From: Victivallales bacterium
GTDB taxonomy: Bacteria; Verrucomicrobiota; Lentisphaeria; Oligosphaerales; Oligosphaeraceae
Assembly: GCA_017615955.1 (NCBI GenBank)
Contig: JAFZZD010000543.1
Coordinates: 1-6,632, forward strand
Reading direction: 5' to 3'
DNA: 6,632 nt
The position numbers and the translations under genes were made by a program. The notes beneath the pieces were generated by a model, which was not told where the DNA came from, did no database searches, and saw nothing but the letters and a program-made list of their open reading frames with translations. This document shows positions 2,457-6,632 of this stretch, piece by piece. How positions within the stretch are numbered: position 1 is the first letter of the stretch; each line of letters starts with the position of its first letter.

Positions 2457-2460
2457 ACCA

Positions 2461-4257
2461 ATGGAAATCCATTTGAAAGACACATTTTTCGCACCGCGGC
2501 AGGCAATGAACATTGCCGTGACAATACCATCCGCAATCAAGCGCTGCGAGGAGACGGGGCGCATTGACGCTTTCAAACTGCAATGGAAGCCAGGATGCAC
2601 CCTGCCCCAGCCACACGTATTCTGGGACAGCGACGTGGCCAAGGTCATGGAAGGCATGGCATATACGGCGGCATCCTCACCTGAAATAACCCAACGCCTG
2701 GACAAGCTGGTGGATCTGGTCATATCCGCACAACAGGAAGACGGCTACCTTAACACGCATTATATAGTCACCGAAACCGACAAGCGCTGGTGCGAACTGT
2801 TTTACAAGCATGAACTCTACTGTGCGGGACATCTCACCGAAGCTGCCGTGGCCCATTACAACGCAACTGGAGACAAGAAGTTCCTCAACGCCATGAGACG
2901 CTACTGCGACTACATATGCGATGTGTTCGGTCCAGATGGCAAGCAGGGCTATCCAGGCCATGAAGAAATCGAGCTTGCTCTGGTGAAGCTCTACAAGGCT
3001 ACAGGTGACGAGAAATATCTCAGGCAGGCAAAGTTGTTCATAGACAGGCGCGGCACATCACCCAATTACTTTGTCGCAGAGGAAAAGCAGCCAGAAATCG
3101 TGCTGCCATTGTTCCAGGCGCACAAGCCAGTCCGCGAACAGACCAAGGCCGTGGGCCACGCGGTCCGTGCGCTCTACCTATACAGCGGCATGGCGGATGT
3201 GGCGGAGGCCACTGGCGACACTGAGTTGCTGGCCGCCTGTGAACGGCTGTTTGATGACCTGGCGCAGAACAAGATGTTCATCACAGGCGGCGTGGGCAGC
3301 CGCCAGATTGGCGAGTGTATCGGCGGCGCTGGCGAACAGGTAAGCGAGCGCAGCTATGCGGAAAGCTGTGCCGCCATGGCACTGGTGCTGTTCACATCAA
3401 GGATGCTGAAAATCACAGGCAAGAGCAAATACGCGGATGTTATGGAGCGGGCCTTGTACAACTGCGTCATGAGCGGGTTGTCCCTGTCAGGCGACCGCTT
3501 CTTCTACGCCAATCTCCACGCCTGCCACCGTGGCATGGAATGCCAAGGCCATGTGGCGACAGAGCGCCAGAAGTGGTACGATTGCAGCTGCTGCCCCACC
3601 AGCTACTGCCGTTTCCTGCCCCAGATCGGCAACTTCTGCTTCCGCGCTGAAGCGGACTATCTTGCAATCGACATTCCAGCTGCGGCCAGTGTCAAAGGCG
3701 ACAATTACGAAGTGGAGATTGCTTCCAACTATCCCTATAGCGGAAAAGTCAGCGTCCGTGTCGTGCGTGGCGGCAACTTTGAACTTAAGGTGCGCATTCC
3801 TGGCTGGTGCGGCAAATATACACTGCCCAATGAAGGCGAAACAAAAGATTCATACTGGACACTGAAAAAACACTTTGCCGACGGCGAATCATTTGACTTC
3901 GATTTCGCCATGCCAGTGGAGACTATATTCACATCAATCCCCTCGCTGGCAAGCCAGGCTGCGCTGTGCCGCGGCCCCCTGGTCTATTGCGTGGAATTGC
4001 CGCTTACATCTGAAATATCACCATTCGAGTTGATACTCACGCCAGAAAGCACATTTGAAACATTCCCCATGGACGACCTTGTTCCTGGCTGCGTGGGCAT
4101 CAGGTTCACAGCCAAACGCCTGCACAGGCCAGACGCACTCTACTCAACTCATTATGAAAGGCTGACGGACACTTCCGCCGTCGCCATTCCATACTCATTC
4201 TGGCAGAACCGCGAAAAATCGGAAATGACCATATTCATGCCATTCTATCACCAATAA
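2461..4257 (+). CDS. GH127 family glycosidase, likely beta-L-arabinofuranosidase
   Basis: The 598-residue product matches family GH127 (formerly DUF1680), retaining enzymes that remove beta-L-arabinofuranose from plant glycans with a zinc-bound cysteine nucleophile. The (alpha/alpha) barrel spans about residues 1-400. Family landmarks are HVFWDSD (52-58), YCAGH (H124), YPGHEE (H167), VGHAVRALY (H233), GSRQIGEC (E285, acid/base position), SYAESC (E301 and C303, zinc ligands) and CSCCPT (C377 nucleophile and C378 zinc ligand). The distances H233-E285 (52) and E285-E301 (16) equal those in the characterised HypBA1 of Bifidobacterium longum. Beta-sandwich domains follow, with RIPGW (445-449) and RGPLVYCVE (504-512). 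No signal peptide is present, so it probably acts in the cytoplasm on short imported arabinosides. All catalytic residues are intact. The family also includes members with other substrates, so the sugar specificity is inferred. It is slightly shorter than HypBA1. Confidence 0.93.
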   Translation: MEIHLKDTFFAPRQAMNIAVTIPSAIKRCEETGRIDAFKLQWKPGCTLPQPHVFWDSDVAKVMEGMAYTAASSPEITQRLDKLVDLVISAQQEDGYLNTHYIVTETDKRWCELFYKHELYCAGHLTEAAVAHYNATGDKKFLNAMRRYCDYICDVFGPDGKQGYPGHEEIELALVKLYKATGDEKYLRQAKLFIDRRGTSPNYFVAEEKQPEIVLPLFQAHKPVREQTKAVGHAVRALYLYSGMADVAEATGDTELLAACERLFDDLAQNKMFITGGVGSRQIGECIGGAGEQVSERSYAESCAAMALVLFTSRMLKITGKSKYADVMERALYNCVMSGLSLSGDRFFYANLHACHRGMECQGHVATERQKWYDCSCCPTSYCRFLPQIGNFCFRAEADYLAIDIPAAASVKGDNYEVEIASNYPYSGKVSVRVVRGGNFELKVRIPGWCGKYTLPNEGETKDSYWTLKKHFADGESFDFDFAMPVETIFTSIPSLASQAALCRGPLVYCVELPLTSEISPFELILTPESTFETFPMDDLVPGCVGIRFTAKRLHRPDALYSTHYERLTDTSAVAIPYSFWQNREKSEMTIFMPFYHQ

Positions 4258-4389: not shown

Positions 4390-4443
4390 GTGCTAAATTA
4401 CCCATCTGCCATCATACAACATATATGACATGGCGCATATAAC

Positions 4444-4449
4444 AAAAGG
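4444..4449 (+). promoter_or_regulatory. Ribosome binding site that decides the acetyltransferase start
   Basis: AAAAGG stands 7 nt before the ATG at 4457. The in-frame ATG at 4430 has no such purine run, so 4457 is preferred. Confidence 0.6.
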
Positions 4450-4456
4450 CTTGACA

Positions 4457-6259
4457 ATGACAAGACAACTACGCATAGGCTTCGCGCAGACATTGGGCCT
4501 GGGCGTCAATGCCGCAAATGAATACCTGGCATACGCTATAAGGCAGACGGTATTTGAGAGCCAAGGTTCAGAATGGTCTGAACAGTATAGCATACACTAC
4601 CTTGAGAATGATATTCCTGGCAAGCTGAAGCAGGCAAGCGTGATATTCGCGACTGACGCTGGCCGTCCAGTCGGCTGCATTTTATTTGGCTTCCAGAAAC
4701 GCAAGGCCCCTTGGCTGCAAGACGCAAACAACTATGATCTCCTTTACATCGACACGCTGTATGTCGCGCCTGAATACCGTCGCCAGGGCATCGCCAAACT
4801 ACTGATCAGGATGGCGGTGCGCCAGCATGTCTCATCGTCAGGAGCTGTGCTGCTGGTAACGGACGATGACAATGAGAAGGCACTGGCACTTTATCATAGC
4901 CTGGGCTTCAAGTACGTGTCCTTCATTAGAGCAAGTTCTGGCTACATAAACACGGTCAAGGAAATAAGAGCACTGCTGAAAAGCATCAAGGCCAGCTTTG
5001 GCAAACACAAGGTCACCAGCAAGAAGATAGACATTATTGACGATGTGTTCATCATCATGCAACTACAAAGGCACGGGCTTCAAAGCATATACGGAGGCCA
5101 GCATATCTTCTCTTTTGACGAGGATGAGGTATTGCCGAAAGGCATGAAATGGCGTCGCAGATACTATGGTCTGAATAAGGGCGACAAGCATCATCTTCTC
5201 TCAAGAACGATGCCATTGCTGAATTATCTTGTGCGCTTCGTGAACTACGGGATATACATGGATGACAAGCTGGTGGGCATATACAGCCTCTGGGAGCCGA
5301 CGGAGGGAATGACAAACCTCTGCATATTCCCCACTGACGACGACACAGCCGCCAATCTGGCGCGATTTGCCATCTACGATGCCATGATACAACTTCTCCC
5401 GTCAAGAAAGGAAAACGGAACCACTGGCTACCACAACATCACCTTCTATCCGGCATTTTTCCTCAGCTACCTTTGCCTGACAGAAAAGGAGAAACAATTC
5501 TGGTCAAATGAGGACTTTGTCATAATGGGTCAGACATTGCTGGGCAACAGGTGGCATATCGAAGATACTACCAACTTGCCAATAGATCAGCTGGCGTCTC
5601 TCCCCAAGGACATGCAGCTCTGCCATGCAGTGGCAAACGGCTGGAAGCCTGAAGACCTCCCGCCTCAGATGTCGGCGGACGACTGGCTTTTCCTAATATC
5701 GGGAATACAGCAAAGAAGAGATTTCTGGCTGGAAAAAAACTGCAAGGATTTCAGCGCTTTCAGCAAGGAAAGCCTGGTGGCGCTCTTCGCAGCCCGCGAA
5801 ATCAGCCAAGAGATTCTGTTCGCCAATGTCAACCCACAGGACCTGTCAGTGGAGGACTGGGCAAAAATCATCTGGATGGAAAAGGAGTGCATACCAATGT
5901 GCCCGAAGGAGATTTGGCTGCAATTCACACCTTCTCTCTGGGAGAAGATCATGGCGAACAACACGTCCAAGGAATGGCATTTCGGAGACATTGAGGAATG
6001 GAAAAGCAAAAGCTATTCCGATGAAATCAAGGCATTTATCGCAGAACACCCAGCATTCGTGGACAAATATCCCATTGGCTCCTCATATAGATACAAAGTG
6101 TACCCCTGGGAGATACTTGGGCGCTCCGAACTTGACGATGATGGTGTGAAATACCCGGAGGTGCTGAAAATGAACCAACCCAGCGATGACGCCAGATGGA
6201 TTTCGGACGATGAAGACGACAAGGCCGACGAAGAAGAGGACGAATACGCATTCAATTGA
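4457..6259 (+). CDS. GNAT N-acetyltransferase fused to a degenerate second GNAT-like module and a helical repeat tail
   Basis: The predicted protein has 600 residues, far longer than the 150-180 of a simple GNAT enzyme. Residues about 3-158 form a GNAT domain, which transfers an acetyl group from acetyl-CoA to an amine. The beta strand LYIDTLYVAPEY leads to the acetyl-CoA loop R108-R-Q-G111-I-A113 (Q/R-x-x-G-x-G/A), and Y146 with LGF (149-151) marks the last helix and strand. Residues about 190-370 look like a second GNAT fold: GIYMDDKLVGIYSLW (265-279) resembles its central strands, but the R-x-x-G-x-G loop is absent, so it probably does not bind acetyl-CoA. Residues about 405-515 hold spaced S/T-x-x-x-W/L units (MSADDW, FSKESL, LSVEDW, FTPSLW) about 27-30 residues apart, likely helical repeats. 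The end (about 580-598) is highly acidic. The substrate is unknown; the repeats may hold a protein target. It has its own putative promoter and no clear link to the sugar genes. A start at 4430 would add nine residues. Confidence 0.85.
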   Translation: MTRQLRIGFAQTLGLGVNAANEYLAYAIRQTVFESQGSEWSEQYSIHYLENDIPGKLKQASVIFATDAGRPVGCILFGFQKRKAPWLQDANNYDLLYIDTLYVAPEYRRQGIAKLLIRMAVRQHVSSSGAVLLVTDDDNEKALALYHSLGFKYVSFIRASSGYINTVKEIRALLKSIKASFGKHKVTSKKIDIIDDVFIIMQLQRHGLQSIYGGQHIFSFDEDEVLPKGMKWRRRYYGLNKGDKHHLLSRTMPLLNYLVRFVNYGIYMDDKLVGIYSLWEPTEGMTNLCIFPTDDDTAANLARFAIYDAMIQLLPSRKENGTTGYHNITFYPAFFLSYLCLTEKEKQFWSNEDFVIMGQTLLGNRWHIEDTTNLPIDQLASLPKDMQLCHAVANGWKPEDLPPQMSADDWLFLISGIQQRRDFWLEKNCKDFSAFSKESLVALFAAREISQEILFANVNPQDLSVEDWAKIIWMEKECIPMCPKEIWLQFTPSLWEKIMANNTSKEWHFGDIEEWKSKSYSDEIKAFIAEHPAFVDKYPIGSSYRYKVYPWEILGRSELDDDGVKYPEVLKMNQPSDDARWISDDEDDKADEEEDEYAFN

Positions 6260-6275
6260 GGCAATTTCAAAACTC

Positions 6276-6337
6276 CCATGCCACGCCGCAAACTATCGGA
6301 GCCGCTGGCTTTAGCCAGCAGGAAAGGCATGGCTTTT
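6276..6337. terminator. Two-level stem-loop after the acetyltransferase gene
   Basis: CCATGCC (6276-6282) pairs with GGCATGG (6326-6332), and inside it GCTGGCT (6304-6310) pairs with AGCCAGC (6313-6319). CTTTT follows on the + strand. Reading the other strand, GAGTTTTG follows the same outer stem. It begins 17 nt after the stop codon and could end transcripts from both directions between the acetyltransferase gene and the RNA candidate. Confidence 0.55.
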
Positions 6338-6413: not shown

Positions 6414-6597
6414 AAAAAGAGCACTCAGGGACAGGGCGGACCACATTTGCGCGCAATTCAATCTTGCTTGAACTGCCGTGTAACAATCATCTACAGCGGG
6501 CATCCTTTCCCACGGATATTACAAGGCCCGTGCTTCTGTGGCGGGAAAAAATCGCGTGCGCAATTGGCAATGGCCATTGCCCTGCCCCTGAGTGCTC
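6414..6597 (-). ncRNA. Candidate structured small RNA, about 184 nt, 6S-like in outline
   Basis: On the - strand, 6597-6579 pairs with 6437-6419 over 19 bp, including a G-U pair at 6585/6431. Inside it, 6563-6558 pairs with 6452-6447 and 6555-6550 with 6458-6453, a further 12 bp with a 2-nt bulge and a G-U pair at 6553/6455. Both G-U pairs would be A-C mismatches in a + strand transcript, which fixes the strand. A T5 tract (6418-6414) follows the stem directly, and TATACT (6605-6600) precedes it. The apical part can form ACAG/CTGT, CGGGC/GCCCG and ATCC/GGAT pairs, and a small TTCAA/TTGAA hairpin lies on the 3' side of the open middle. Length, closing stem, open centre and side hairpin resemble 6S RNA, which sequesters sigma-70 RNA polymerase. 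I see no diagnostic 6S sequence. No long reading frame covers the region. An alternative is a mobile inverted-repeat element. Confidence 0.6.
6566..6581. repeat. Perfect 16-bp palindrome inside the RNA candidate
   Basis: GGCAATGG-CCATTGCC is fully symmetric. In the - strand RNA it could form GGCAAU/AUUGCC around GGCC, which would compete with the innermost base pairs of the closing stem. It may be a structural switch or simply a protein site in the DNA. Confidence 0.6.
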
Positions 6598-6599
6598 CA

Positions 6600-6605
6600 A
6601 GTATA
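6600..6605 (-). promoter_or_regulatory. -10 box of the RNA candidate
   Basis: On the - strand TATACT differs from TATAAT at one position and ends 2 nt before the base of the closing stem at 6597. Transcription would begin within or next to the first bases of the stem. No good -35 box stands 16-18 bp upstream, so the promoter may be an unusual or activator-dependent one. Confidence 0.5.
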
Positions 6606-6632
6606 AAAATCCATTTGCGAGATGACTGGAAT

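Follow-up and report, generated by a model that had tools for sequence, protein, structure and literature searches.

A minus-strand structured RNA at a Victivallales contig end, most likely the second of two non-coding RNAs of a reverse transcriptase system

Reverse transcriptases with neighbouring RNAs

According to their published accounts, DRT2, DRT3, DRT9 and DRT10 each copy a neighbouring non-coding RNA (ncRNA) into unusual DNA, and the same sources describe the Class 2 UG enzymes as using short templates within such RNAs. The template is a conserved uridine tract in DRT9 (PMC12483538), a loop beside a boundary hairpin in DRT10 (PMC12632851) and the sequence ACACAC, in an ncRNA downstream, in DRT3a (PMC13174585), and in DRT2 the ncRNA, 280 nt long and pseudoknotted, precedes a reverse transcriptase (RT) of 425 aa (PMC12039810).

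The window analysed here is a stretch of 6,632 nucleotides from a Victivallales bacterium (contig JAFZZD010000543.1, assembly GCA_017615955.1). Near its end lies a minus-strand structured RNA, here called RNA B, which in related genomes follows an RT gene and a first structured RNA, RNA A. DRT9, DRT10 and DRT2 resemble this arrangement: each pairs a single RT with a cis ncRNA, about 140–280 nt long and with several stem-loops, and the U-tract template of DRT9, the hairpin by the DRT10 template and the DRT2 pseudoknot recall features of RNAs A and B. In DRT2 and DRT9, however, the ncRNA precedes the RT, and in DRT10 it precedes the SLATT gene, whereas here two RNAs lie downstream. DRT3 shares the downstream position but combines two RTs (DRT3a and DRT3b) with one ncRNA, in contrast to one RT with two RNAs here, and two RNAs per RT are not described in the available portions of the DRT2, DRT3, DRT9 and DRT10 accounts. 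The RT also falls far below the NCBIfam cut-offs for Drt2 (37 of 390 bits) and Drt3a (44 of 200 bits), and it scores 56 bits against PADLOC Drt9. A search made largely outside subscription journals found no literature on this RNA pair.

A structured RNA at the window end

RNA B is a real, unannotated structured RNA. Its parts, and the adjoining arm of RNA A, are as follows (coordinates are those of the window).

6414–6598, minus strand: RNA B, from closing stem to T-tract, with homologues in genomes G041, G029, G262, G449 and G442
6579–6598, minus strand: closing stem of RNA B, 5' arm (20 bp with 6418–6437)
6550–6565, minus strand: hairpin H1, adjoining the U-rich tract on its 5' side
6543–6551, minus strand: U/C tract UUUUUUCCC, a possible template, complementary over 6 bp to the GGGAAA strand
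6526–6532, minus strand: helix P, 5' strand CACGGGC, of a covarying helix
6502–6513, minus strand: purine strand GUGGGAAAGGAU, pairing with the tract in a 12-bp stem that crosses helix P
6494–6501, minus strand: helix P, 3' strand GCCCG-C-UG with a bulged C, of the same covarying helix
6484–6554, minus strand: core of RNA B as delimited by covariance model R1 (74.2 bits, for a sequence that is in the R1 training set)
6453–6476, minus strand: 9-bp hairpin H2, lying 3' of the core, from fold and location
6418–6437, minus strand: closing stem of RNA B, 3' arm (pairs with 6579–6598)
6414–6418, minus strand: terminator-like T5 tract, read from the sequence
6606–6632, minus strand: closing stem of RNA A, 3' arm, cut by the window end

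The minus strand of 6414–6598 folds at −91.4 kcal/mol (z −6.6) and the plus strand of the same region at −77.3 kcal/mol (z −4.4), with 0 of 200 shuffles equal in either case. An unannotated minus-strand RNA had been proposed here by the initial annotation, and the strong fold, the homologues and the compensating changes described below all support it. The proposed 19-bp closing stem is present (6579–6597 with 6419–6437; 20 bp counting the terminal G-U pair 6598/6418), and the sequence confirms both its one internal pair that is G-U on the minus strand only and the T5 run exactly after it (6418–6414). The inner 12-bp stem exists as well (6541–6552 with 6502–6513), with three G-U pairs where one had been reported, and it crosses a second helix, 6526–6532 with 6494–6501, that was absent from that description. 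The structure also extends beyond the RNA first outlined, where 6606–6632 forms the 3' arm of another structured RNA.

The G-U pairing had been offered as a signal of strand. The pair is there, but it is a weak guide, as the sense strand has the better z in four of five B RNAs (a count that takes in the window's own) but in two of five A RNAs. Stronger evidence comes from the RT, which lies on the same strand in the relatives, and from a T run of at least 5 after the stem in five of the six B RNAs, that of G041 being 4 only. The TATACT motif noted before the stem is likewise present (6605–6600, minus strand), but it lies 1 nt from the 20-bp stem and is therefore too close to serve as the −10 box of a full-stem transcript; inspection by eye of the five B relatives revealed no similar box at the matching place.

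No Rfam family reaches its gathering score in the window; weak matches to snoR15, snoM1, Hrs13 and M23 fall below that score, and none overlaps 6414–6598. No tRNA was found in the window region. On the plus strand at 6279–6336, after the GNAT-domain gene (4430–6259), an inverted repeat (CCATGCC...GGCATGG, with an inner GCTGGC/GCCAGC hairpin and then TTTT, by eye) is likely a terminator facing RNA B. Further from the RNA, a tandem repeat of period 20 (2249–2355; 5.3 copies, 94% matches) separates a sugar-isomerase-like gene from a GH127 gene, and a second short one of CACTGTC-like units (2397–2441) lies just before the GH127 gene.

Linkage to a reverse transcriptase and a second RNA

A blind BLASTN search of 47 genomes of the order, with the 206-nt region as query, gave matches in two, G029 (72% identity, query 38–160, E 2.6e-14) and G041 (32 nt, 88%, E 2.5e-4), each just downstream of the same RT. 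In G041 the RT frame, of 514 aa (Pfam RVT_1), is upstream of the RNA on the same strand, and a partial RT is placed likewise in G029. A close form of the RT occurs in three of the 47 order genomes (G001, G041 and G029); 14 further genomes of the order hold distant RTs only, 22–32% identical apart from one 56-residue match. Across the class, the RT was found in six of 197 genomes at E ≤ 1e-20, one copy each, and a search of 387 genomes of the phylum yielded three, all Lentisphaeria already among the known loci.

Covariance model R1, built on the core of RNA B from five sequences with seven pairs, was run over the 197 class genomes with stricter filters, which can lose weak matches, and matched five of the six genomes that have the RT, with no match in the other 191. 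Since four of those five matches had trained the model, only that in G442 is new (58.4 bits, E 4.8e-9). Under lax limits in the six RT genomes, R1 returned one B at E ≤ 0.01 in each of five, with E of 1.36 or more for the remainder; dispersed copies, which the initial annotation had named as a sign of a mobile repeat, were thus not seen. In the sixth genome, G001, RNA B sits in an assembly gap and therefore gives no match.

Looser searches gave little beyond these loci. The core written as a DNA pattern, with up to 3 mismatches, matched three of 387 phylum genomes (G041, G239 and G277). Of these, G041 is the genuine match; those in G239 and G277, at 3 mismatches, are near chance, and a reversed control also matched one genome (G397); G029, G262, G442 and G449 were either missed by the pattern or outside the 387-genome sample. 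Core matches on two viral contigs, L058 and L059, lie inside phage coding frames, score 12–15 bits with R1 and were set aside as chance or unrelated; no RT was among the ORFs listed for them.

The initial annotation had suggested a divergent 6S RNA, which would regulate RNA polymerase, and the size, long closing stem and open middle of RNA B do fit one. 6S RNA is a housekeeping RNA, whereas RNA B is sporadic, found only in genomes with one particular RT. Furthermore, the 6S family RF00013 has no match in the window at E ≤ 5 with permissive filters or in five of the RT loci at E ≤ 0.5, and none in any of the 47 order genomes with strict filters, a search that gave a signal in five of 14 control genomes, four of them over the cut-off. 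With no such match and an RNA tied to one RT, the 6S reading is not supported, and we regard it as extremely improbable.

In all four genomes with sufficient contig (G041, G029, G262 and G449), a single contig carries RT, RNA A and RNA B in this order and on the same strand, and A and B abut within 7 nt at each of these loci. RNA A measures 219–242 nt (sense z −8.2 to −12.5) and RNA B 175–191 nt (sense z −3.9 to −7.3), for five RNAs each. In G442 the RT contig ends inside RNA A, and RNA B, found by the covariance model, is on another contig whose end is complementary, by eye, to the A arm on the RT contig. An upstream ncRNA has no room in G262 and G442, since only 48 and 23 nt, respectively, separate the preceding gene from the RT. 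A third core upstream of the G041 RT was considered on a weak R1 match (15.8 bits, E 0.14) and rejected: a stricter motif, with a chance rate of about 0.1 per 200 nt, was absent upstream of the RT in four genomes.

The window itself joins this arrangement through its closest relative, G001, in which the RT gene (locus L039, 3510–4877) gives way to RNA A, a structured element of 240 nt that reaches the end of the contig. Over its final 27 bases the window is identical (27/27) to L039 5071–5097, the 3' arm of RNA A in G001, which stops one base before that contig ends. Because the contig end after the G001 RT matches the window end exactly, the window probably stops just before an RT; very likely its end falls within RNA A, with the presumed RT gene a few hundred bases further on. 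The other contig of G001 goes no further than window position 6099. Elsewhere in the window, the GNAT-domain gene has one relative among GTDB species contigs, in the Victivallales MAG RGIG3456 from goat rumen (91% protein identity), the DNA of which matches window positions 2459–4250 at 89% and 4443–6099 at 94%; the window thus derives from a close relation of that Lentisphaeria species of the rumen.

RNAs A and B have a core in common, in which H1 stands directly 5' of a U-rich tract and is followed by CA and the 5-bp helix P. The 3' side of helix P is closed by a bulged base (a pyrimidine in 10 of 11 RNAs) and UG (10 of 11), and the core includes a purine strand complementary to the tract. 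R1 run on RNA A gives no match, so the two RNAs resemble each other less in sequence than in plan and motif. In a hand register of 11 RNAs (six A and five B), helix P is paired in 54 of 55 cells with both-side changes at all five positions, matched by 0 of 5000 strand shuffles, though such a register favours the structure and the related sequences are not independent. A machine alignment of six B RNAs, including that of G442, paired 97.6% of 42 cells, with three of seven pairs changing on both sides and a covariation score reached by 1 of 500 shuffles; sliding the helix P partner by 1–3 columns lowers the pairing to 17–55%. The outer helix P0 is paired in 35 of 35 cells (six A RNAs and one B), with 3 of 5000 shuffles as good. 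The compensating changes that the initial annotation had looked to in relatives are therefore present, in helix P and not in the stems it described.

Pairing between the U/C tract and the GGGAAA strand holds in 62 of 66 cells over the 11 RNAs, and 258 of 5000 shuffles equal its covariation and 535 of 5000 its pairing; the complement is conserved and hardly covaries. An H-type pseudoknot of tract and GGGAAA strand is no more than a possibility, and the linkers of RNA A seem too short to bridge the crossing stem. All 12 A and B RNAs have H1 ending at the tract, with p < 0.05 singly in four of 12 and a combined p of 1e-4 when the 12 are treated as independent.

A simpler explanation is that A and B belong to the RT mRNA as its structured 3' UTR and its terminator, serving protection, termination or autoregulation, and are never separate ncRNAs. 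Both follow the RT directly, the 5' arm of RNA A overlaps the end of the RT frame in four of five genomes with an uncut frame (in G041, the exception, it begins 22 nt later), and RNA B ends in a stem and T-run. Termination, however, does not call for 180 nt of RNA with an internal core that is conserved and covaries, and a tandem pair of such elements is difficult to account for in this way; we consider this explanation unlikely.

The reverse transcriptase and its possible use of the RNAs

The RT has 847 relatives at E ≤ 1e-10; among the 120 matches listed, 21 exceed 50% identity (the query's own record included) and 99 fall at 38–44%, and YADD is present in 20 of 20 aligned relatives. Its best PADLOC family is UG26, an uncharacterised group whose profile has no stated cut-off, with 115 bits over most of the profile, yet this is barely above the generic RT model (111 bits); five wider relatives score 112–136 bits with UG26, the generic model being higher in two of the five. 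The literature search found no publication on a UG26 ncRNA. The NCBIfam group II maturase model gives 95 bits, far below its cut-off of 300. In an AlphaFold2 model of the G001 RT (pLDDT 88), the top Foldseek match is DRT9, whereas by Z the group II intron RTs (28.9) and a DGR RT (27.8) are nearer than G2L4 (26.3) and DRT9 (25.1), with no one class singled out. The model matches RTs that act with an ncRNA, DRT9 among them, and, as in DRT/UG Class 2 systems, a conserved structured ncRNA stands beside the RT.

Two observations concern the RT's C-terminal end. In G029 the RT frame (L004 3477–3827, minus strand) is cut short (…AIIDVC) and lacks the conserved DYYLKH motif and the C-terminal part, and a catalogue protein of 380 aa, P0019, has the same end; RNAs A and B remain at this locus, which weighs against the reading of them as partners of the RT. 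In the 38–44% group (e.g., P0022, P0028 and P0110), a C-terminal tail with a repeated FSPxPEA motif occupies the place at which, in the Lentisphaeria loci, the RT gives way to RNA A.

RNA A or B could alternatively yield branched DNA in a retron-like msDNA system, the closing stems being the a1/a2 arms. As in retrons, an RT is accompanied by a cis RNA closed by a long stem; the RNAs here, however, lie downstream of the RT, and the retron RT model is far missed (St85, 53 of 235 bits). The retron RT motifs VTG and NAxxH occur in one and two of the 20 aligned RTs, respectively, and neither is found in the five RTs from the loci studied here. We therefore hold a retron to be very doubtful.

The RNAs might instead be the ends of a mobile retroelement, group II-like or other, needed for its own copying and insertion. 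An RT fold nearest to group II RTs and different neighbours at each locus would suit such an element, but the RT (E ≤ 1e-20) and RNA B are single in each genome, and the five loci, some of them cut by contig ends, have no Rfam intron match at E ≤ 0.5. Nor was a close RT found in phages or plasmids, where 80% coverage was reached in no phage record and in three plasmid records at 22–24% identity. A mobile element thus seems improbable, if marginally less so than a retron. Among viral contigs, a single RT sequence as query found nothing, and an RT alignment found two distant relatives (35% and 32%). On one such contig, L051, an antisense R1 match without helix P lies just upstream of the RT (23.6 bits, E 0.0026), and on another, the phage contig L050 with the 35% RT, a strong fold or hairpin just upstream of the RT (4761–4940) has z of about −9 on both strands against mononucleotide shuffles; neither was counted as the same RNA.

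The neighbours of the RT differ among genomes and offer no steady defence context: G041 has a WYL regulator, and G442 has a PD-Lambda-3_A-like gene and a zinc-ribbon/Sel1 gene. In G001 the RT is immediately preceded by an RNA-repair pair (L039 1376–3299), an RtcB RNA ligase with a release-factor-domain gene that we take to be PrfH-like, and between the latter gene and the RT (about 3320–3410) an inverted repeat of about 30 bp is predicted to fold.

RT, RNA A and RNA B are thus structured or coding elements with homologues in several Lentisphaeria, a constant order and a shared occurrence. As RNA B is the second of paired RNAs just after the RT in relatives, it probably works with the RT, and we are fairly confident that it is an RT-partner RNA of some kind. 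Most probably a DRT-like RT system, so far undescribed, has two ncRNAs, and RNA B is the second of them; binding by the RT, templating and defence would be the expected activities. The reading as a whole, that it is the ncRNA partner of an RT whose gene begins beyond the window end, seems to us somewhat better than an even prospect.

On this preferred reading, the RT gene, RNA A, RNA B and the T-tract would form a single co-transcribed unit from which both RNAs are released. The RT would then bind A and B through the shared core, that is, helix P with its bulged pyrimidine and H1 before the U-rich tract. The U/C tract may be a short template, bounded on its 5' side by H1 and copied by the RT as in DRT9, DRT10 and DRT3a, and the GGGAAA strand may act as a lid, its pairing keeping the tract closed until the RT is triggered. 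That RNA B is copied as a template is plausible, at a little under even chances, and the cDNA product may serve phage defence or another stress response; use of the cDNA or RNA B system in defence is the more tentative proposal. Similarly tentative is the suggestion that one RT served by two different structured RNAs in tandem, both containing a hairpin, a tract rich in U and a core with a bulged helix, represents a new immune or regulatory kind, in which two distinct cDNAs are made or one RNA primes or gates the other.

In this case a genuine RNA was recognised from raw sequence although the gene of its partner is missing from the window. At least in Lentisphaeria, likely RNA partners of this RT, which has 847 relatives, can be given names, boundaries and models, so that RT pull-down and cDNA sequencing can target them directly.
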